Shown one piece after another: positions 2,794 to 12,012 of a DNA stretch of 19,353 nt (position 1 is its first letter; each line of letters opens with the position of its first letter). Both the position numbers and the translations under genes were made by a program. Origin of the DNA: Alistipes sp. (GTDB lineage: Bacteria; Bacteroidota; Bacteroidia; Bacteroidales; Rikenellaceae); the NCBI GenBank assembly GCA_017559685.1, contig JAFYQY010000061.1, positions 1 through 19,353 of the forward strand, given 5' to 3'. The notes under the pieces were generated by a model. That model ran no database searches. It was given only the letters and a program-made list of their open reading frames with translations, and was not told the origin of the DNA.

Positions 2794-3419
2794 AACGCTT
2801 GTAATTGTTGCTGAATTTGATTTTGTGCGAACTGCAAGCCCTGTGCATCATTCATTGCCGACAAGACAAGTTCTGCGGTCTTCCACGCAATAACACTACT
2901 CAACTGCTCTGGGTAATTTTCGGTACTTGATACGACAAAGGCTTGTGCTTTTTTGATAGTCCCGGTACTGCTGTAATACTCTAAGTTTGAACCGCCATCG
3001 CAGATAAATACGACAGGTCGTTTAGGTGTTCCCATAAGAATAGGGTCCGCTTGCTGACGATAGCGAGGGTTATCCGAGTAGAGAGCATCGGTAATAGGCA
3101 ATGCCCAATCGCTCATTTGGAAAGCGATAAGACGAACAAAGCCCGAAGGAAGTGGCACAGGGTTTACTCGCAGATGTGAGTCGTTATCAGTTTGCGAGGT
3201 GGTATTTTCACCCTCTTGTGGCTTATCCTCTTGTTTCGGCACAAACGAGATTCCTGCACCTAATGCCCTAACCGGAGCAACACGCCCAATAAAGCGTATG
3301 GCATCATCAACAAAGTCCTCGATATGAAACTCATCGATGTCTGACGACAGTGGAGTATCAGGATAGACTTCGTCAAGGCACTTATAGGCTTTTTCTACGA
3401 TTTGGGTGCGTGTTGCCAT
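2790..3419 (-). CDS. Probable head-tail adaptor (connector) protein
   Basis: A 209-residue protein. The N-terminal helix (MATRTQIVEKAYKCLDEVYPD) and the FVDDAIRFIGRVAPVRAL helix resemble the start of phage adaptor proteins that dock under the portal. A variable hydrophilic loop (about residues 60-82, rich in Q, E, N, T and S) follows. Next comes LPSGFVRLIAFQMSDWALPI, typical of the strand-helix region of podovirus adaptors, then NPRYRQQADPILMGTPKRPV. The C-terminal helix is rich in Q and L (QFAQNQIQQQLQAL). It sits five bases after the 144-aa head gene and overlaps the next gene by 4 bases. The order capsid, small head protein, adaptor is standard. Assignment is by pattern and position; a structure prediction would settle it. 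Confidence 0.5.
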   Translation of the reverse strand: MATRTQIVEKAYKCLDEVYPDTPLSSDIDEFHIEDFVDDAIRFIGRVAPVRALGAGISFVPKQEDKPQEGENTTSQTDNDSHLRVNPVPLPSGFVRLIAFQMSDWALPITDALYSDNPRYRQQADPILMGTPKRPVVFICDGGSNLEYYSSTGTIKKAQAFVVSSTENYPEQLSSVIAWKTAELVLSAMNDAQGLQFAQNQIQQQLQAL

Positions 3420-3424
3420 AGGTT

Positions 3425-3859
3425 TTAGTTGAAGTTAGGGAATATGGTGTTATACTTCTCAGCAGCCTCCTGCTTAATAGTCTCTGCCTTACGAGCACGG
3501 AACACAGTACCGTGAGTGCGCTGGCACCAATTCTGCGCAGTTGCCAAATCCACTACCGACAACTCCTCAACGATATTCTCCTTATCCTTGCAGAGTTCTC
3601 TGTAATCGACAACCTTTGGTTGCTCAGTAATCTCCTCTGGAGTGTCGTTGGTTTCACTTTGTAAATAGAACAACGAGCCAAAGCTGTTATGCTTCTTTAA
3701 CTTTTCGATAACCTCCTTATCCGAAGTGATATATCGAGCAACACCGACATTGCCAAACAATATCGGAGCCTCGAAATTTATGATTACAAGACGACCATTA
3801 TCTCGTCTAATGGTTGTGGTAAGGCATTGTGTACCTCCTGTTACAAATGTTGCTGACAT
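3425..3859 (-). CDS. Hypothetical head-associated protein after the capsid gene
   Basis: A 144-residue protein with ATG at 3857-3859. The N-terminal half is β-rich (FVTGGTQCLTTTI, RLVIINFEAPILFG, GVARYITSDKEV). It is followed by a short helix with K and N, then LFYLQSE. A charged linker (TNDTPEEITEQP) leads to a helical C-terminal part containing VDLATAQNWCQRTHG and ending FPNFN. No membrane segments. It follows the major capsid gene after a 60-base gap that holds a strong hairpin. By position it could be a head decoration, stabilisation or completion protein. The family is not recognised. Confidence 0.6.
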   Translation of the reverse strand: MSATFVTGGTQCLTTTIRRDNGRLVIINFEAPILFGNVGVARYITSDKEVIEKLKKHNSFGSLFYLQSETNDTPEEITEQPKVVDYRELCKDKENIVEELSVVDLATAQNWCQRTHGTVFRARKAETIKQEAAEKYNTIFPNFN

Positions 3860-3883
3860 ACTTATATATGTTTTATGATTAGG

Positions 3884-3914
3884 GAGTGAGGAGAGTTATC
3901 GGCTCTCCCCACCC
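3884..3914 (-). promoter_or_regulatory. Strong mRNA hairpin just after the capsid gene
   Basis: In the minus-strand transcript, the 12-base arm at 3914-3903 pairs with the arm at 3895-3884 through 12 consecutive pairs including two G-U wobbles, closing a 7-base loop (3896-3902). It starts five bases past the capsid stop codon and ends 25 bases before the next start codon. No U-tract follows, so a complete terminator is unlikely. It may instead protect the 3' end of the capsid message or mark a processing site. Pairing is seen directly; role is inferred. Confidence 0.55.
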
Positions 3915-3919
3915 AATGA

Positions 3920-5344
3920 TTATTTGAGGCAAAGGAATCCGTGAGTCTTCGGATTAGTTACCTCCAAGGTGAATGCCTCCTCCAAGAGCACATCCTCCGA
4001 GTTGCGGATACCGGCCTTCTTCAGGTCGAGGTTCTCCATTGTGAGTGGCACCTGCTCGATACGACGAATGTTTGCAGGGTCAATCAAGAATGCAGCCTTG
4101 CCATAACCTGCTACACCGAGTCCTGGGTGCATAATCGCCATCAAAGTACCGAAATTGCTCTCGATAACCTTCCAGGTGATACCCCACTTAACCTCGGTCT
4201 TGCCTGCCTCCAACTGACGAGTCCAAACACCCGAGTTGGCGAGTGCAGTAGCGAACTCTGGGCCATAAAGCAAGAGTCGCTTCTCCGAACCGTTGTTGTT
4301 CTCAAAGGCCTTCTGCATAGCGATGTTGATGTACTCCTCAACACTCTCATCGCCCTGGATATACTTCAGGATATCAAACGACAAGAGACCACGCATAAAG
4401 AGCTTACGCTTCTGCGTATTAGGGTCGATGATAGCACCATCATCAGCCGGAGCCTCGCCAAAGAGAGCTGCGTACTCAGCCTGGGCACGGAAGTCGAGGA
4501 GAGCCTGCTCCTTAAACTCTGCGATACCGTACTCTACCTCCTTATCCTGCAATGCCTGGTAGACATTCTGCGAGATTGTACAGAGGTTACGCTGGCAGAA
4601 GTTCTTTTCCTTTACAGGAGTTGCCATAGGGTCGTTGCTGATTGCAGCCTCCTGATCCTTGGCCGAAGCCATACGGCGGAGCACAACACCCGAGGTAAGC
4701 TTTGCCTTTGCAGTCGCAGCCGAAATACCCTTGCTTGTCACAACGACATCAATGGTACCAGCACCATAGTTGATATCCACGATGTGGAGTCGGAGTGGGT
4801 TTGTTGCGATAGGGTTTGCTGTATTTACAGCTGAACCCTCAACCTGCAACTGTGGGATAAACACATTCGCATCCTTCGAGAGACAGTGGCAACCATCCGA
4901 CAAGGTAATCTTGATGATATTACCTGTAGGATCTGCTGACGAGCCAATTGTTGCTGACAAGCCACGAGAGTGAATCGAGTAGAACTCAAATACATCAGAG
5001 TTAGTCTTACCCGAACCAATGTTACGCAACAATGTATCGAGAGGAGTTCGGCTTGGCTCAATCTTTGAGAGCTTCTCCGATACAGTTGCTTTGTTCATCT
5101 GAGGCTTATCCTCTGGCGATAGGCCACTCTTGCCAGTAGTTACCTCTTTGCCACCTGCTGTTGGAGCTGAACCAACAGTAGTAGAATCAGCATCTGCACC
5201 GACAAAGCCAACAGGCGCAACGGCCATCATAGCACCTGCACCCAATGCGGACTCAATATCTACGATACCGAGAACACCCAATACGGCTACAACTGCTGCA
5301 ATCACAACAGTCAAGCCCGACAAAATCTTCATTGTCTTTTTCAT
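3920..5344 (-). CDS. Major capsid protein, HK97-type fold likely
   Basis: A 474-residue protein from ATG at 5342-5344. An in-frame TTG at 5390-5392 would add 16 residues, but that stretch looks like an A/T-rich leader and would overlap the scaffold gene. The N-terminus is unusual: MKKTMKILSGLTVVIAAVVAVLG and a second hydrophobic stretch (GAGAMMAVAPVGFVGADAD), followed by a Ser/Thr/Gly-rich linker to about residue 80. The body has R-x-P-L-DTLLRNIG near residue 100, CQRNLCTISQNVYQAL around 250, a long helix (YGIAEFKEQALLDFRAQAEY), and a C-terminal half with LLLYGPEFATAL, GITWKVIESNFGTL and a terminal TLEVTNPKTHGF. This pattern fits HK97-fold capsid proteins. It follows the scaffold by 41 bases, as expected. 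The N-terminal part is probably a removable delta-like domain. Confidence 0.82.
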   Translation of the reverse strand: MKKTMKILSGLTVVIAAVVAVLGVLGIVDIESALGAGAMMAVAPVGFVGADADSTTVGSAPTAGGKEVTTGKSGLSPEDKPQMNKATVSEKLSKIEPSRTPLDTLLRNIGSGKTNSDVFEFYSIHSRGLSATIGSSADPTGNIIKITLSDGCHCLSKDANVFIPQLQVEGSAVNTANPIATNPLRLHIVDINYGAGTIDVVVTSKGISAATAKAKLTSGVVLRRMASAKDQEAAISNDPMATPVKEKNFCQRNLCTISQNVYQALQDKEVEYGIAEFKEQALLDFRAQAEYAALFGEAPADDGAIIDPNTQKRKLFMRGLLSFDILKYIQGDESVEEYINIAMQKAFENNNGSEKRLLLYGPEFATALANSGVWTRQLEAGKTEVKWGITWKVIESNFGTLMAIMHPGLGVAGYGKAAFLIDPANIRRIEQVPLTMENLDLKKAGIRNSEDVLLEEAFTLEVTNPKTHGFLCLK

Positions 5345-5385: not shown

Positions 5386-6249
5386 TTACCAATTTTTGCG
5401 AGACTTACGCTTTACCTCTCCGAAGATGTCATCCTCCTCAATCTCCTCCGGCATCGTTACGCCTACTGCGCTACCACCTGTTGGGAGTCCGTCAGTCTCC
5501 GCCTCTGCACGCTCACGCTCTGCATCGATACGAGCATTCTTAGCATCGATAGCACCTGCCTCACGAGCCGACTCCATTGCCTGCTCATAGTTCATAGCAC
5601 GATAGAACACATCGAGAAATTCTCGTGTTACCACACCATTGACATAATCGGCAATCATCTTGTCGATCTTGTTGGCAAACGCCACTCCCTGCTCCTCGTC
5701 AAATGCAACCTCCGAGAAGAAATCAGAGATCACCTGCTTGCTATCCTCTGCGTTCTTGCTAAATGTCTCTCGATACTCGTCAGATTTGCGCTTGCGATCT
5801 TTTCGTGCTTCGTGCGCTGCCTGATACTCAGCATACATCTCCTCGCCCTCCAAAGGTTTGAGAGACTCCACATCGACATTTGCCGCAAGAGCAACCTCAA
5901 AAGGCTTTCCCTCCGACAAGTCCTGGATAATTGCATACAACTCTGGATACTCAGCGAGAATATCGCCTACCATACTGTCGCTTGTCGAGAGTTCATTCAA
6001 CTTCTCCTCGATGAAAGCATACAGCTCCGCATCGGTATCAAACTGCTTGCCGAACTTGTCGGCCACAAACTCTCGCAAAGAATCAATGCCCAAAGTGAGT
6101 TCTCCGCCATCTGGCATTTCAACCATACCTGCATCTACAGGCTCCTCAACAGGGGTCTCAGTAGGCGCTGTTTCCTGCTCCGGAGCTGCAACGATAATCT
6201 CTGTAATGCTCTCCGGCTGCTCTGTTTTTGTTTTGTTTTCCTTTGCCAT
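5386..6249 (-). CDS. Capsid scaffolding protein
   Basis: A 287-residue, highly charged and largely helical protein starting MAKENKTKTEQ. The first ~45 residues are disordered and rich in E, P and T. The middle (about residues 50-240) is acidic and helical with little hydrophobic core (for example REFVADKFGKQF, YAEYQAAHEARKDRKRK, AMESAREAGAIDAK, ARIDAERERAEAE). An acidic patch (EEIEEDD) is followed by a short basic tail ending EVKRKSRKNW, the usual capsid-binding element of scaffolds. It lies directly upstream of the major capsid gene in the same operon. Scaffolds guide procapsid assembly and then leave or are degraded. There is no protease motif, so a separate protease, if used, is not here. 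Confidence 0.75.
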   Translation of the reverse strand: MAKENKTKTEQPESITEIIVAAPEQETAPTETPVEEPVDAGMVEMPDGGELTLGIDSLREFVADKFGKQFDTDAELYAFIEEKLNELSTSDSMVGDILAEYPELYAIIQDLSEGKPFEVALAANVDVESLKPLEGEEMYAEYQAAHEARKDRKRKSDEYRETFSKNAEDSKQVISDFFSEVAFDEEQGVAFANKIDKMIADYVNGVVTREFLDVFYRAMNYEQAMESAREAGAIDAKNARIDAERERAEAETDGLPTGGSAVGVTMPEEIEEDDIFGEVKRKSRKNW

Positions 6250-6360: not shown

Positions 6361-6597
6361 ATGAATGGCTATGAAAAGGCAAATCCTCGCTCCAACAGGG
6401 CGATAAATCTACACAAGGAGATTTTCAGGCGTTATCAAGAGTTGCAAAGAAAAAAAAAGGAGGATAGTCCTACCGAAGCAAGGTTTCTTTCTGTATCATA
6501 CTACGCTGAGGTTTTATCACAAGACCCACTTATCGGATTACAACCCTACACCATTGTTCGCATTATCAATAGTTTTATCAAGGGTAGGCGCAAATGA
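6361..6597 (+). CDS. Small HTH-like protein, candidate terminase small subunit
   Basis: A 78-residue basic protein (ends FIKGRRK; also RKKK at residues 30-35). Helical throughout: AINLHKEIFRRYQELQ, then a helix-turn-helix-like unit around residues 45-74 (SVSYYAEVLSQDP...QPYTIVRIINSF). Its stop overlaps the TerL start as ATGA, so the two are translationally coupled. A small DNA-binding protein immediately before TerL is the usual place of the small terminase subunit, which recognises the packaging start site. At 78 residues it is shorter than most. A regulator of the operon is the main alternative. Confidence 0.5.
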   Translation: MNGYEKANPRSNRAINLHKEIFRRYQELQRKKKEDSPTEARFLSVSYYAEVLSQDPLIGLQPYTIVRIINSFIKGRRK

Positions 6598-8567
6598 CCG
6601 CAGAGGAGTTAAAGCGAATACTTGAAGAGAACGATAGGCGCAACGGACTACTTTTTGCATACTACGATCCTCTTACAGGCGAAGGCTCACCACTACCTCG
6701 AGAGCCATTCGACATAACTCCTACTCAGCAGGTTTTCATTCCAAAATATCTATGGCACACCTCTGTTATCCAAGAGATTATCAAAAGTGGCACACTCGCC
6801 CACTATGCCGAAATGTTAGGCGTTCACTTCGGCCAGCTGCTCGATTGGTTTAATCTCCAACGCATTACATTTGATTTCGAATATTGGGCTGCTACCTGCT
6901 CGACTATTATGGATAAATTGTCGGGGCAGGAAATACGATTTACGCTTAATAAACCGCAACTTAAAATTCTTGGTATCATCAACAGCGACCTATTCGCCAA
7001 CATTCCTGTTCGAGCAATACTTTTGAAAGCTCGACAATATGGAGGTTCTACACTTATTGATCAATGGGAGGCTTGGATACAGCTGTTCCATAGAGTGAAT
7101 TGGAACTCGGTTATTGCCACGCACGAACAAGATGCTTCACGCACTATCCGAAAGATGTATGCACTTATGGCCGAGCGCCATCCGAAAGATATATGCAATG
7201 TGCAGTTGCGTTCTTTTGAAGGCTCGCCAAATAAAAAGATAGTCCCTTCACGAGGTTGTACTATTGCGATTGCGTGTATCAAGAACCCAGAGTCGTTGCG
7301 TTCATCAGATATTAAGTTGGCTCACCTGTCAGAGGTTGGTTTGTGGCAAGATAACCCTGCAATTAAGGGAGATGATCTCGCACAGTCTATTATCGCTTCT
7401 GTTCCGAACATTCCATTTACAGCCATTATTCTCGAGTCTACCGCCAAAGGTATTGGAAACTATTTCTATAGAACGTGGAAAGCGGCAGAACAGGGTAAGA
7501 GCGCATTTAAGCCAATCTTTGTGGCGTGGTTTGAAATACCTATTTACTGGAAGGCGTTTGTTAGCGAGGGGGACAAGATTGCGTTTATTAGCACACTGTC
7601 GCCAGAGGAGTGGGATAGGTGGCATCTTGGAGCAACGCTCGAGGGTCTCAACTGGTATCGAGAAAAGTTGTCGGAAATGCCAAACGAGTTCCGTATGAAA
7701 CAGGAGTTCCCATCGACACCACAGGAGGCATTCTCCACAACAGGTCGCTATGTCCATAACGCAGCCGACATAGACTTCCTCCGTGCAGGCTGTTCTGCTC
7801 CAAAATATACCGGCACTCTCCTCGCCACAATGCAGTATGGCAGGGAGGCTATCGACTCCTCGCTCCGCTTTGTTCCTGACGATAATGGCGACCTCTTCCT
7901 CTGGGCGATGCCGGATAAGGAACGCAATGTAAGTAATAGATATATAGTAACAATGGATATCGGAGGTCGCAGTGATGATGCCGACTGGACCGTTATATCT
8001 GTTATTGACCGCTATCCGCTTATGTTTGGTGGAGTGGAGGAGTGTATTGGCACCTGGCGTTTCCATCTCGACCAAGACCTTGCAGTTTGGAGAGCCGTGC
8101 AGCTTGCCAAGTTCTTCAACGATGCACTGCTTGTAGTCGAGTTCAACTCCCTCGACACCAAAGGCTCGGAGGGCGACCACACATTTACTATTCTCGATGC
8201 CATCGTAGAATACTACGAAAATATATACTACCGAGACGACCCTACTAAGGTTCGAGAAGGCCTTGCTCCACACTACGGTTGGTACACTGGAAGATCGCAA
8301 AAGATGGCTATTGTATCGCACATGCAACATCTATTGCGTGATAAGCAGGTTATTGTTCGTGATGAACGCTTGCTTGATGAATGTGCCTGGTTTGAGCAGA
8401 AGGAGAAGCGAGATACCTACGGAGCTGTAGATGGCGAACACGATGATATTTATATGTCGTATGGCATTGGTCTCTATGTGTCATCTAAATGGGATATGCC
8501 TAAGGAGCACGAAGTATACGAGCGCAACAATGGGCGCATTACCGTACGTACACACGCACATATTTAA
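6594..8567 (+). CDS. terL: Terminase large subunit (DNA packaging ATPase/nuclease)
   Basis: A 657-residue packaging motor protein. The ATPase domain shows a Walker A variant, KARQYGGST (residues 145-153), a Walker B-type end AHLSE (E247), and the coupling motif ILESTAKG (279-286). The nuclease domain, RNase H-like, shows MDIGG with D455, LLVVEFNS with E516, and a late acidic pair GEHDDIY (D617/D618). The N-terminal ~120 residues precede the ATPase core. TerL pumps DNA into the procapsid through the portal and cuts the concatemer. It is on the plus strand, whereas the portal and capsid genes on both sides are on the minus strand. Length and motif order are complete, with no sign of damage. Confidence 0.93.
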   Translation: MTAEELKRILEENDRRNGLLFAYYDPLTGEGSPLPREPFDITPTQQVFIPKYLWHTSVIQEIIKSGTLAHYAEMLGVHFGQLLDWFNLQRITFDFEYWAATCSTIMDKLSGQEIRFTLNKPQLKILGIINSDLFANIPVRAILLKARQYGGSTLIDQWEAWIQLFHRVNWNSVIATHEQDASRTIRKMYALMAERHPKDICNVQLRSFEGSPNKKIVPSRGCTIAIACIKNPESLRSSDIKLAHLSEVGLWQDNPAIKGDDLAQSIIASVPNIPFTAIILESTAKGIGNYFYRTWKAAEQGKSAFKPIFVAWFEIPIYWKAFVSEGDKIAFISTLSPEEWDRWHLGATLEGLNWYREKLSEMPNEFRMKQEFPSTPQEAFSTTGRYVHNAADIDFLRAGCSAPKYTGTLLATMQYGREAIDSSLRFVPDDNGDLFLWAMPDKERNVSNRYIVTMDIGGRSDDADWTVISVIDRYPLMFGGVEECIGTWRFHLDQDLAVWRAVQLAKFFNDALLVVEFNSLDTKGSEGDHTFTILDAIVEYYENIYYRDDPTKVREGLAPHYGWYTGRSQKMAIVSHMQHLLRDKQVIVRDERLLDECAWFEQKEKRDTYGAVDGEHDDIYMSYGIGLYVSSKWDMPKEHEVYERNNGRITVRTHAHI

Positions 8568-8594
8568 TAATGTATAACTAAAAACTAAATCATT

Positions 8595-8945
8595 ATGTCA
8601 TTAAACAAAGTACAACTGATCGGCCATATCGGAGCCGACCCCGATGTTCAAGCCCTCAATCTCGGCCGCAAAACTGCCAGGTTTCGACTTGCAACAACCA
8701 AATGGACCAGAAAAGATAATCAAGAGATAGAGCCAACCCCTGTATGGCATAGCATTGTATGTTGGGATAAGCTCGCAGAGTATGTTGAAAGAAGTATTAA
8801 AAAAGGAGACAAGATATATCTTGAAGGAGAAATATCTTATCGCACCTACAAAAGCAACAATATAGAGCAAACTTATACGAATATTGTAGCATCAGAAATC
8901 ATAATGCTTAAAAAGAAAAACGAAAGCAAAGATGATATGCAATAA
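8595..8945 (+). CDS. ssb: Single-stranded DNA binding protein
   Basis: A 116-residue OB-fold protein of bacterial SSB type: NKVQLIGHIGADPDVQ at the N-terminus, ARFRLATTKW around residues 28-37, WHSIVCWDKLAEYVERSIKKGD around 51-72, and IYLEGEISYRTYKSN with the usual Y. It protects single-stranded DNA during replication and recombination. The C-terminus is very short and ends ESKDDMQ. The acidic linker and DxxPF tip that cellular SSBs use to recruit partners are absent. It follows TerL by 27 bases with no promoter that I can see, so it is probably co-transcribed with the packaging genes. It has a TAA stop. Confidence 0.9.
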   Translation: MSLNKVQLIGHIGADPDVQALNLGRKTARFRLATTKWTRKDNQEIEPTPVWHSIVCWDKLAEYVERSIKKGDKIYLEGEISYRTYKSNNIEQTYTNIVASEIIMLKKKNESKDDMQ

Positions 8946-8987
8946 TCTATTTTTGTTACGATTTTGCGTTATGCAATGTTACGATTT

Positions 8988-9009
8988 TTGAAACAATAAA
9001 TTGTTTCAA
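8988..9009. repeat. 22-bp palindrome downstream of ssb
   Basis: TTGAAACAA (8988-8996), TAAA, TTGTTTCAA (9001-9009): nine perfect base pairs. It partly overlaps the second copy of the direct repeat. There is no T-run on either strand after the stem, so it is not a standard terminator. It could be a binding site or a stabilising 3' hairpin for the ssb message. Confidence 0.5.
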
Positions 9010-9058
9010 TTCAATATGTGATGACTGCTTTTGGCTATTTTGACATCAGAATAGAATG

Positions 9059-9098
9059 AAATCGAAACATTCATAACAATTCGATTTAACATTTTTTT
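9059..9098 (+). terminator. Weak candidate terminator after ssb
   Basis: AAATCGAA (9059-9066) pairs perfectly with TTCGATTT (9080-9087) around a 13-base loop. Seven T follow at 9092-9098 after a 4-base gap. The stem is A/T-rich and the loop large, so termination would be inefficient. Position, after ssb and before a new promoter, supports it. Confidence 0.35.
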
Positions 9099-9107
9099 GT
9101 AACAATC

Positions 9108-9138
9108 TTTGCAAATTCAAAAATTGTTTGTACTTTTG
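9108..9138 (+). promoter_or_regulatory. Bacteroides-type promoter of the small-gene cassette
   Basis: TTTG at 9108-9111, a 19-base spacer, TACTTTTG at 9131-9138: a full match to TTTG-N19-TAnnTTTG. The expected start is near 9142-9146, at the very beginning of the left arm of the long leader stem. It would produce a leader of about 140 bases before the ATG at 9287. Confidence 0.75.
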
Positions 9139-9142
9139 TAGT

Positions 9143-9299
9143 GCGACAAAATGATACTTGTAGTATCTAAAGACATATTTATTACGCACAATAAAGGCGT
9201 ATCCCTCCTTATCTGTATTTACAGGTATCGTTTTGTCGCAAAAACAATGGGGTACGCCCTTTTATATACACTAACTTTTTAGGAATATGCGACAAAACG
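9143..9299 (+). promoter_or_regulatory. Structured leader RNA with alternative pairings
   Basis: Three pairings are seen. Stem A: 9143-9157 with 9225-9239, 15 continuous pairs with one G-U. Stem B: 9196-9205 with 9249-9258, 10 continuous pairs with one G-U, followed by C and TTTTATATA. Stem C: 9229-9240 with 9288-9299, 12 perfect pairs that include the last two bases of the ATG at 9287. A and C share the same strand (9229-9239) and exclude each other. A and B interleave, so they would form a pseudoknot or also compete. The layout looks like a riboregulator or attenuator in front of the next gene. A stand-alone ~120-base RNA ending at the T-run (about 9260-9263) is the alternative. No known riboswitch class is recognised. 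Confidence 0.5.
9151..9282 (+). CDS. Possible 43-aa leader peptide
   Basis: An open frame of 43 codons beginning MILVVSKDIF and ending LLYTLTF, with ATG at 9151 and TAG at 9280-9282, four bases before the next ATG. It starts only about 8 bases after the predicted transcript start. The C-terminal half is hydrophobic and aromatic with a few basic residues, as in a small membrane peptide. It overlaps stems A and B and the left arm of stem C, so ribosomes moving along it would open those stems. A 43-codon frame can arise by chance in this composition, so confidence is low. No SD motif is seen. Confidence 0.3.
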   Translation: MILVVSKDIFITHNKGVSLLICIYRYRFVAKTMGYALLYTLTF

Positions 9300-9610
9300 G
9301 AAAAGTTAGCAGCAAAGCGGAGAAGAATAGTAACCGTGCTGCACAGAAGTTCTACCACTATGGTAAGGCAATGTTATTTGGCTACTTTGAAATTACTAAG
9401 CGTTTTGCTTGTGGTCAAGATGCAATCGAGTGGCACCGCAGAGTACAATCTGGTTGGAGAGCCAAAATATACGATGCACACCTCTATTACGATAGCTATG
9501 CAACCCAACCTATGATAAAAGGATTTGATTCATTTAGATTTGCTAAAACAAAAAAAATATGTGGTATGCAAACCGCCATACAGTTGGCTAAAGAGGGAGC
9601 TTTTATATAG
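9287..9610 (+). CDS. Hypothetical basic protein, 107 aa
   Basis: Starts MRQNGKVSSKAEKNSN with many K, R, N and S, so the first ~22 residues are probably flexible and basic. The rest has dense aromatics and two W: KFYHYGKAMLFGYFEITKRF, then QDAIEWHRRVQSGWRAKIYD, then a Y-rich segment (HLYYDSYA) and a basic FRFAKTKK. The C-terminal helix is small and uncharged. There is no signal peptide or clear membrane helix. It is the first full gene after the structured leader, and its ATG lies in stem C. It is followed 17 bases later by an acidic protein. No family is recognised. A nucleic-acid-binding role would fit the charge, but that is a guess. Confidence 0.65.
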   Translation: MRQNGKVSSKAEKNSNRAAQKFYHYGKAMLFGYFEITKRFACGQDAIEWHRRVQSGWRAKIYDAHLYYDSYATQPMIKGFDSFRFAKTKKICGMQTAIQLAKEGAFI

Positions 9611-9627
9611 ATGTAACTAACATTATT

Positions 9628-9918
9628 ATGACATACGACCAAAAAGACAAGCAGGTTATTCTAATAAATGGAGAAATAACCAACTACACTAACGCTGATA
9701 TTCCCCACACAAAGCACCCAATTCGGCTGCTTCACAACAGGGTGTTTAACGAGGAAGAGTGGAATAAAGAAATAGGCCCAATAGATTTTGAGAAAGCGTT
9801 TGGCAAAAAGAGTGCATTGATACACGTACTAAACTTTCCAAAGACTTTCGAAGAAATCTTAGAAGAAGATAGAAATACAAAAACAACCCAAGAGATTATA
9901 AAAGAGAAATGGATGTAA
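9628..9918 (+). CDS. Hypothetical acidic protein, 96 aa
   Basis: Starts MTYDQKDKQVILINGEITNY, a probable β-hairpin, then a short N/H/T-rich loop and RLLHNRVFNEEEWNKEIGP. A second half, FEKAFGKKSALIHVLNF, leads to an acidic/charged helical C-terminus (TFEEILEEDRNTK...IIKEKWM). No membrane or signal segments. Its stop codon forms the first bases of the strong terminator that closes the cassette. The pairing of a basic 107-aa protein and this acidic 96-aa protein in one short unit could mean they bind each other; that is inference. No family recognised. Confidence 0.65.
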   Translation: MTYDQKDKQVILINGEITNYTNADIPHTKHPIRLLHNRVFNEEEWNKEIGPIDFEKAFGKKSALIHVLNFPKTFEEILEEDRNTKTTQEIIKEKWM

Positions 9919-9954
9919 ACAAACAACTCGTGGAAGCCACGAGTTGTTTGTTTA
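9916..9954. terminator. Bidirectional intrinsic terminator between convergent genes
   Basis: Arms 9916-9933 and 9937-9954 pair perfectly over 18 bases around a 3-base loop (AAG). The core is G/C-rich (CTCGTGG/CCACGAG) and the outer part is A-rich on one side and T-rich on the other, giving a U-rich 3' arm in both directions. It separates the plus-strand small-gene cassette from the minus-strand portal gene. Confidence 0.88.
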
Positions 9955-9966
9955 GTTATAACTATA

Positions 9967-12012
9967 CTATGCCACTGGCAACAACTCCTCCTTGAAGTTA
10001 TTACCCATCATTTGTTGTATCATTCCCAAAGCACGAGGGCTGGACTGCTCCTGTGCCAACTGATGAATGTTATTCACGGTCTGCATATTCGGTGCACCAC
10101 CTTGCGCCTGTTGCTCCTTCAATGACTGCAACTCCGACAATATCTGCTTACCGAATGGTAATGTAGTATGCTGCAAGAAGGTCTCAAGAGGTATCAATCC
10201 GCCCATCAACATATCCTTAAGATAGTCATTGATTTGCATGCGGAACACTGGCGTATCCATACCCTGCGAAGGAACAAACGATACGCTATCGATGATAGCA
10301 CGAGCCTTCTCCGGTATATACTCCGATGCTGTCTGTCCGTAGTTCTTACCCGATGTCGCAAGGTATCGCTTAATAGTGTAGTACTGCACTAAAGTCTGCA
10401 ATAACTTCCTATCACGCTTCAATGCGTAGTCGTTAAAGCGGTTAAACAACAGCACAAAATTCAGCATAGTATTTTGCGCCTGCTGTGCATACAAGGATGC
10501 AGGAGTAGAAGACTTTGCCACCTGACCCTGAATAGCTCCCGACAAGCCACTAATCTGCTGTATCTGCTGCATATCAAAGTTCAGTACATCGAAGATGCCG
10601 ATGTTAATAGCATTACGCTGTAAGAATTGTGGCATAGGTACACCCGGTTTAGGCTTAAACTTGATAATACCGTTAATCTTCATTATCTCCTCAGCATACT
10701 CCTCCAAAGTGTTACCGTCTAACGCATCTTCCGGAATAAATAGAGTATTCTTTGCACTCGATGCAATAAGCATATCAAGCATTGTGCGCTGGCGATTGAT
10801 GTTGCGCTGCATATCTATAAGGTCCGAGAACAACGGCTTTGCCTCTCCGTCAATGATAGGCATCGTAGCAAAGATATATGGGTGAGAGCCGTGCTCGTAT
10901 GGCGACTCCATCTCTTTCAGACATACGCCCTGCGGTGTCAAGAACTTACAGTTCCAATAGTGCTCGTATCGCTCCTCCATCTCAATTAAAGGAATATCCT
11001 CAACATCAATACCTGCTGCGGTACCCTGCAAAACTCTTCGTCTATTCTCTACCTCAACCTTCTGCTTTACTGCCTCGATATTGTCTACATACTCCTTTGG
11101 TCGAGCAAACGAAGCTCTATCGTTAGTCCACAATACCCAACGACCACAACGATACCACACCTCAATTACTCGATACTTATTAACTTCAAGAGCATTGCTC
11201 CAAAAGTCCATACTGCCAAGCACGGTCTTTGCCGTATTGTTGATATTCTCCAAGCGGTCAGTATCTGTTTGCGAAAGGGTAAAGGCAAGGTTGCGAATAA
11301 TTCGCTCATCCTCTTTCGTCTGCGCAAAGTTAGAAATCAACTCATTCATTGTATAGGAGTGCAACTCCGTAATACGCCTAATATCGAAGAGTCGAGGATC
11401 CTCAACATCCTGATTCCACGCAAAACGCTGCTCATTTACATAGTTGATATGACCATCTTTTTCTTTGCGTTCATCCCAAGGTCCATAGGTAACCTTTGCC
11501 GCTACGGTACCAATAGTGTGCAATGCTATAATAACATTGATATCAAGGGTCGAGTTTTCGTTGATGTCAAGACACGCCTGCACCGCATTAGTAAGCATCT
11601 CGGCCGCCTGTGCATCCTCCTCTCTACGAGCGTTGATAATGGTCTTGTAGTTATTTGTTAGGAGCTGACCGCACACATTGCGAATATACTGCTGCAAGAT
11701 ATTGTGCGTAATAGGCGTAATACCGGAACGAGAGATTAACTCACGCTCTGTAATCTTCTTGCCTTTATTGTCAGGGTCTGCAACAAGGTCGCTCCACTGA
11801 TCACCTCCATAATACTTCATAAAGCGGAGATGCTCTCTGCGCTTATCGGCAAGTTGTAGCCAATCATTATGACATGCCCATAGTAAGTCCATATTGTGCT
11901 TTTCCTTAACAGCATCTCGCTTTATGGCCGACTTCAAGCCCGAAGGCTTGCGCTGTGGCTTTCGGTAGCGCAAGCCCAATTTTGTTACATCTATTTGTTC
12001 CATATTGGTCAT
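9967..12012 (-). CDS. Portal protein (P22-like)
   Basis: A 681-residue portal, the dodecameric ring at one vertex through which DNA enters and leaves. Near the N-terminus it has FMKYYGGDQW, followed by a KGKKITERELISRSG-type block and the ITPITHNILQQYIRNVCGQL helix, characteristic of large podovirus/P22-type portals. Later comes HPYIFATMPIIDGEAKPLFSDL, then the stem-like region MQRNINRQRTMLDMLIASS. Around residues 480-520 is FDMQQIQQISGLSGAIQGQ, a pattern usual in portals of this type, followed by SSTPASLYAQQAQN. The C-terminus is Q-rich and helical. The start overlaps the polyprotein stop by one base (TAATG), so translation is coupled. The gene ends 12 bases from the shared terminator. Confidence 0.88.
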   Translation of the reverse strand: MTNMEQIDVTKLGLRYRKPQRKPSGLKSAIKRDAVKEKHNMDLLWACHNDWLQLADKRREHLRFMKYYGGDQWSDLVADPDNKGKKITERELISRSGITPITHNILQQYIRNVCGQLLTNNYKTIINARREEDAQAAEMLTNAVQACLDINENSTLDINVIIALHTIGTVAAKVTYGPWDERKEKDGHINYVNEQRFAWNQDVEDPRLFDIRRITELHSYTMNELISNFAQTKEDERIIRNLAFTLSQTDTDRLENINNTAKTVLGSMDFWSNALEVNKYRVIEVWYRCGRWVLWTNDRASFARPKEYVDNIEAVKQKVEVENRRRVLQGTAAGIDVEDIPLIEMEERYEHYWNCKFLTPQGVCLKEMESPYEHGSHPYIFATMPIIDGEAKPLFSDLIDMQRNINRQRTMLDMLIASSAKNTLFIPEDALDGNTLEEYAEEIMKINGIIKFKPKPGVPMPQFLQRNAINIGIFDVLNFDMQQIQQISGLSGAIQGQVAKSSTPASLYAQQAQNTMLNFVLLFNRFNDYALKRDRKLLQTLVQYYTIKRYLATSGKNYGQTASEYIPEKARAIIDSVSFVPSQGMDTPVFRMQINDYLKDMLMGGLIPLETFLQHTTLPFGKQILSELQSLKEQQAQGGAPNMQTVNNIHQLAQEQSSPRALGMIQQMMGNNFKEELLPVA

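Follow-up and report, generated by a model that had tools for sequence, protein, structure and literature searches.

In the satellite phage P4, immunity acts through premature transcription termination of the replication genes, and the CI RNA pairs with the sequence seqA lying upstream and with seqC lying downstream of it (PMC4825925). In phages P1 and P7, the antisense RNA c4 acts on its target by blocking the ribosome binding site region, and its differing sequence underlies heteroimmunity (PMC12197685); PMC2864571 tabulates c4 for Proteobacteria and phages. The immI unit of P22 lies within the late operon region and contains a small antisense RNA that restrains a protein acting on the primary repressor (PMC2629481, PMC11016777). 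STnc6030, found in BTP1, protects against its own phage BTP1 and not against P22 (PMC7067206). IsrK of the Salmonella prophage Gifsy-1 works with an mRNA switching between two structures. The P22 sar RNA is a separate RNA transcribed from its own promoter. To our knowledge, RNA-based phage immunity of the seqA/seqB/seqC type is known only from phages of Proteobacteria; a literature search by title and abstract start, covering mostly papers outside subscription, returned no such RNA in Bacteroidota phages, which is weak evidence of absence.

Here we describe a leader in a 19,353-nt stretch of DNA from Alistipes sp. (contig JAFYQY010000061.1; hereafter the window). We consider, with moderate confidence, that this leader forms a type-specific switch of the antisense RNA kind, resembling P4 CI RNA and acting on the gene ORF1, and probably ORF2, in a probably temperate group of Bacteroidota phages. 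As in P4, an RNA piece is flanked by a complementary seqA upstream and seqC downstream, and the regulator would derive from the controlled transcript; the window leader has this layout, the single transcript being deduced from sequence. In contrast to the P4 system, seqC overlaps a start codon here and the controlled gene encodes a 107-aa Bacteroidota phage protein; the resemblance is one of layout. P4 controls a replication operon, whereas only ORF1 and ORF2, with no match to a replication family, lie downstream of this leader. P1/P7 c4 (RF01695) is similar in placing an antisense RNA at the ribosome binding site region of the target gene and in its sequence-based heteroimmunity. The C4 covariance model (RF01695) did not reach gathering score in the window and was not listed for 9090-9400 up to E 10. 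Since Rfam C4 is not matched and the controlled gene is not a replication operon, the leader would work like P4 CI and P1 c4 while belonging to neither. The P22 immI region or 'ant moron' (mnt, arc, sar RNA, ant) shares a unit in the late region under antisense RNA control. IsrK and STnc6030 differ in layout and host, their relation having been checked by the Rfam scan of the window. No Rfam family reached gathering score anywhere in the window, and the leader region, searched up to E 10, gave four weak matches, none to a phage family.

The cassette between ssb and the portal gene

The window represents the structural region of a tailed phage. A small gene (6361-6597), TerL (6594-8567) and ssb (8595-8945) are followed by the cassette and by a portal gene convergent to it (P22_portal match, E 8.8e-34), beyond which lies an ORF of 2402 aa. 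A reading made earlier from the sequence alone (the sequence-only reading) had proposed a self-contained unit in the gap between ssb and the portal gene (9108-9954), and its components, a promoter motif, a structured leader, ORF1, ORF2 and a terminator-like hairpin, are all present. ORF1 (9287-9610, plus strand) encodes a basic protein of 107 aa (pI 9.9) and ORF2 (9628-9918, plus strand) one of 96 aa, both without known family; the latter had been called acidic, which its net charge of -3 supports, although only mildly so (pI 5.8). These are the only two genes downstream of the leader and before the hairpin and the convergent portal gene.

The promoter motif TTTG-N19-TACTTTTG (9108-9138, plus strand) follows the pattern TTTG-N19-TAnnTTTG, which we take to be a Bacteroidota-type promoter. 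The pattern alone is weak, with 2 matches on both strands of the window against 0.64 expected and at least 2 in 30 of 200 shuffles; the promoter named earlier is corroborated by the same motif at the matching place (5839-5869), with identical spacing, in the related contig L001. In the gap between ORF2 and the convergent portal gene, perfect 18-bp arms (9916-9933 and 9937-9954) enclose a 3-nt loop to form the terminator-like hairpin (9916-9954, no strand assigned), with T-rich sequence within the 3' arm and a hairpin at the equivalent place in L001. The earlier call of a terminator with 18-bp arms holds in these respects, but a terminator scan did not list it.

That neither protein is recognizable was confirmed, since searches of Pfam, PHROGs, PADLOC and NCBIfam gave nothing above cut-off for ORF1 or ORF2; the matches returned, also for 23 members of the ORF1 family, were weak and below threshold. 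The profile of ORF1 matched no solved structure, and none of its relatives has a known function. Structure prediction, which had been suggested for the proteins singly and as a complex, was carried out singly and yielded models of low confidence (mean pLDDT 58.7 and 53.9), and a Foldseek search with the ORF1 model found no fold match at E 0.001. Because the models are poor and ORF1 has no fold match, no function was read from structure. The ORF1 family is narrow, with 25 matches among 5.8 billion proteins including that of the window itself (P0002), and a profile search added none to these 25; one homolog is labelled as an Alistipes sp. MAG. ORF2 has three homologs besides itself. The homologs P0014 and P0028 share a longest-contig figure of 5415, so the two genes may occur side by side in that phage as well. 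In L001, ORF2 is without a match, and a basic 68-aa protein (pI 9.75) takes its place, which counts against a fixed two-protein complex and weakens the earlier idea that the opposite charges hint at one. Among the homologs of ORF1, P0001 (167 aa) carries a central unit of approximately 55-60 residues duplicated in tandem.

Two IMG/VR contigs, L001 and L002, carry ORF1 at the same site with 74% identity; as they are identical over 10,669 bases except at 6 of the first 7 positions, they were counted as one relative. Scans of viral contigs with ORF1, TerL, portal, the leader DNA pattern and a TerL fragment recovered these same two cassette-bearing contigs together with L005, L006 and L014; the TerL and portal search patterns covered few places, and relatives may have been missed. 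Scans of the viral contigs with ORF2 gave no match. L014 was rejected as a cassette relative and judged a chance match because its surroundings lack the cassette layout. The distant contigs L005 and L006 carry TerL and portal without ssb, ORF1 or ORF2, and since ssb is lacking too, the difference there is larger than 9108-9954. No match was found in the genome species collection (ORF1 profile and TerL as a pair), among 50,697 phage records (ORF1, protein level), among plasmids (DNA 8590-9967) or among phages (DNA 6594-9967). The earlier description of the cassette as moron-like is therefore upheld in part: the promoter motif, the structured leader, the unmatched proteins and the probably temperate phage group agree with it, but the expected presence or absence of 9108-9954 between intact flanks was not seen, ORF1 being at the site in 1 of 1 independent close relative. 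Conservation at the same place, as in a core gene pair, which had been named as evidence against such a unit, was seen in part for ORF1 and not for ORF2.

Complementarity and joint change in the leader

Directly downstream of the promoter, the leader contains three complementary pieces, all on the plus strand. seqA (9142-9162) is the 5' arm of the 21-bp stem P1; as it begins 4 nt past the end of the -7 box, it would lie at or near the transcript start if the promoter is used. seqB (9220-9240) pairs either with seqA over 21 bp or, through its last 12 nt (9229-9240), with seqC (9288-9299), a perfect complement of these 12 nt that overlaps the ORF1 start codon. A repeat search returned both the 21-nt inverted repeat and the 12-nt complement, and the complementarity of the three pieces is certain at the level of the letters; the two pairings are mutually exclusive. 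An attenuator-like stem, P2, can form between p2 (9196-9205, plus strand) and p2' (9249-9258, plus strand), and together with the adjoining CTTTTA (9259-9264) it is a possible intrinsic terminator. A third hairpin, P3 (9271-9309, plus strand; arms 9271-9279 and 9301-9309), has a loop that contains seqC and the start codon of ORF1. The leader (198 nt from 9143) folds at -52.7 kcal/mol (z -3.78), an energy equalled by 0 of 200 shuffles, and in this fold seqA pairs with seqB, and seqC and the start codon lie in the P3 loop. The structured leader noted earlier is thus substantiated; we read it as a three-part switch and not as a structured untranslated region alone. Its main feature, the recurrence of the stem sequence for a third time at the ORF1 start codon, had been overlooked in the sequence-only reading.

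Leader DNA was compared between the window and the single independent relative, L001. The promoter and the DNA directly after seqC are nearly identical in the two phages and most of the leader is unalignable; L001 has the same seqA/seqB/seqC layout in different letters. With the stems aligned by hand, 9 of 15 pairs of P1 had changed on both sides and none was broken; for seqB:seqC, 7 of 12 had changed on both sides with 1 broken, for P3 3 of 8 with none broken, and for P2 2 of 10, with 1 single change and 1 broken. MAFFT with RNAalifold recovered neither P1 nor seqB:seqC (18 pairs, 2 double changes), and the two leaders folded separately each gave P1 and P3. The calculated energy of seqB:seqC was -19.1 and -21.0 kcal/mol for the cognate combinations and -11.3 and -7.6 kcal/mol for the crossed ones. 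This comparison of letters shows that both alternative pairings, seqA:seqB and seqB:seqC, have been kept in L001 through compensatory change, and RNA pairing in the leader is likely to be under selection.

5' hairpins commonly protect mRNAs, and it could be supposed, in line with the moron of the sequence-only reading, that the hairpin only stabilizes the transcript of a constitutive moron comprising ORF1 and ORF2. The frequency of such protective hairpins and the presence of the promoter motif and the terminator-like hairpin agree with this; we nevertheless find it improbable, as it explains neither the third copy at the start codon nor the joint change of that copy with seqB (7 of 12 pairs). 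We hold it very improbable that the three copies act as DNA sites, either as operators for ORF1 or a repressor, or as inverted repeats for a site-specific recombinase. The orientation of the copies would suit such sites, seqA and seqB being inverted and seqC direct relative to seqA, as would a further palindrome of changing sequence upstream (8988-9009). However, G-T pairs occur in seqA:seqB of each phage (pair 11 in the window; pairs 9 and 12 of the 15 counted in L001), so that RNA pairing fits better than DNA symmetry, and the separate stem P3 also stays paired through double changes.

The arrangement was also set against chance. Seven phage sequences, overlapping in part, supplied 3734 ATGs when both strands were read, and the 200 nt upstream of each ATG were searched for the longest perfect complement. 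The ORF1 start of the window had the longest, 12 nt, as the sole case, and that of L001, with 11 nt, was one of 4 ATGs with this length; the distances are nearly equal, -58 in the window and -53 in L001. The triple motif appeared in 0 of 2000 shuffles per leader at each of three thresholds, which were set post hoc; among the real leaders, that of the window passes all three and that of L001 only the loosest (8 and 10). Of the helices in the folds, the longest spans 22 bp for the window, a length reached by 0 of 1000 shuffles, and 15 bp for L001, reached by 1 of 1000; the overall energy of the L001 leader is not unusual (z -1.79; 13 of 200 shuffles as good).

Separately, a 10-bp palindrome (8988-9009), which may be an operator or an RNA hairpin, precedes seqA by approximately 130-150 nt. 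The aligned stretch of L001 is also palindromic but in other letters, so that the symmetry is kept and the sequence is changed.

Predicted switching

Switching was modelled by equilibrium folding without pseudoknots or proteins. In the lone transcript, seqA:seqB was paired over 0.98 of the piece in the window and 0.86 in L001. When the cognate seqB RNA was supplied in trans, it took seqA at 0.98 (window) and 0.75 (L001); the cis seqB then moved to seqC at 0.34 in the window, where P2 formed at 0.60, and at 0.71 in L001, with P2 at 0.0. The seqB of the other phage, or one shuffled RNA per phage, left the seqA:seqB pairing unaltered; the shuffled RNA contacted seqC of L001 at 0.11. Compared with termination in P4, P2 followed by CTTTTA thus forms in silico, once seqA is taken, in the window (0.60) and not in L001 (0.0), P2 being absent from the L001 ensembles.

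These folds predict a switch with two states. In a lone transcript, seqA:seqB would be paired and seqC left free of seqB, with ORF1 on; a seqB RNA of the same type in trans would capture seqA, whereupon the cis seqB would pair with seqC and/or P2 would form, turning ORF1 off; the seqB of another phage is predicted to leave the leader unswitched. In the full leader, seqB is locked in the 21-bp duplex, and action in trans would therefore need processing. The leader RNA may be terminated or processed to a fragment bearing seqB, which could accumulate in the lysogen or with genome copy number. ORF1 would then be made in a burst at first entry and silenced afterwards; silencing would be immediate in an incoming phage of matching type and would not occur in one of another type.

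The pairing evidence fits equally well a switch that acts only in cis, with seqA, seqB and seqC toggling within one RNA through RNase III processing of the 5' end, a kinetic timer, a ligand or a protein, and with neither a trans RNA nor immunity. The sequestration of seqB within the full leader is in line with this, as are the folds obtained after removal of the first 24 nt, in which seqB:seqC reached 0.82 for L001; for the window it reached 0.17, with P2 (9196-9205 with 9249-9258) emerging at 0.79. A switch in cis alone, however, offers no obvious reason for many types reassorting between protein backbones (see below), and we regard it as rather unlikely.

If the antisense switch in trans operates, ORF1 would encode a protein unwanted in the lysogen, and our best guess is an antirepressor or an early take-over factor. 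The RNA-controlled antirepressor genes of P1 and P22 provide an analogy; neither ORF1 nor ORF2 had a Pfam or PHROG match above cut-off to the P22 Ant antirepressor. With a protein repressor also present, control by RNA would amount to secondary immunity, by analogy with P22 immI (PMC11016777, PMC2629481).

N-terminal types of ORF1 and the phage group

seqC overlaps the ORF1 start codon and is reflected in the first residues of the protein. The profile and the tree excluded P0001, for its internal duplication, and P0025, in which the N-terminus is joined to a permease in a probably chimeric assembly; the alignment (A3) held 23 ORF1 rows, and the tree set 24 (A3 and L001). In A3, columns 2-5 had a mean entropy of 1.98 bits against 0.67 for columns 8 onward, although these four columns rank 16th, 8th, 6th and 4th of 109, so that some other columns are equally variable. 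The 24 proteins fall into 14 N-terminal types (columns 2-6). On a tree of columns 9 onward, in which 2 of 21 inner branches were starred and which is therefore a weak basis for the reassortment test, the types required 19 changes, where 13 would correspond to one origin each. Pairs of the same type (n=15) shared 74.5% over the rest of the protein compared with 75.3% for all pairs, a value reached by 1303 of 2000 shuffles, and P0018 and P0021 are nearly identical past residue 9 and differ in N-terminal type. The N-terminal types thus seem unlinked to the remainder of the protein, as if the seqC segment reassorts.

All 24 ORF1 proteins have R, Q, L or P as residue 2, amino acids that can all be encoded by CNN, with every second base used; among mechanical ORFs of these phages, residue 2 was L, P, H, Q or R in 20 of 83, and the codon began with C in 15 of 83. 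This is the pattern expected if ATGC is fixed and the base after it is free to vary, with seqC deduced from residues in 22 of the 24 proteins and read from DNA in the remainder. Synonymous change amounted to 6 of 35 in ORF1 codons 9-48 and 19 of 37 in later codons; as TerL also has a window with 1 of 30, we place little weight on this stretch of ORF1.

More tentatively, we propose that temperate phages of gut Bacteroidota use allelic RNA self-recognition, in which a specificity segment (the leader and the first ORF1 codons) would reassort by recombination in conserved flanks, each type silencing ORF1 in phages of its own type alone, as a homotypic immunity of origin independent of P4 and P1. 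If true, this hypervariable, reassorting form in gut Bacteroidota phages would mean that RNA immunity arose or spread elsewhere; it would also provide a rule, readable from sequence, for which phages exclude which, and make ORF1 worth testing.

The phage group is probably temperate, since a longer relative (G002) encodes an integrase of the tyrosine type as well as regulators that match Cro/C1-type or repressor families. The same genome carries an apparent diversity-generating retroelement (IMG/VR contig L013, 2877-5858), with a reverse transcriptase at 2877-4151, a template-like repeat at 4097-4182 and variable copies at 4710-4795 and 5105-5190 in two neighbouring ORFs; the listed differences lie mostly at A of the coding strand. 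The retroelement was rejected as a source of leader variation because the leader changes affect G and C besides A and are compensatory. Other features of G002 are a short tandem repeat of CAAGTTGTCCCA units inside a helicase-loader-like gene (L013, 10530-10749) and a strong palindromic hairpin, perhaps a terminator, directly after a 901-aa ORF (L012, 17406-17441).
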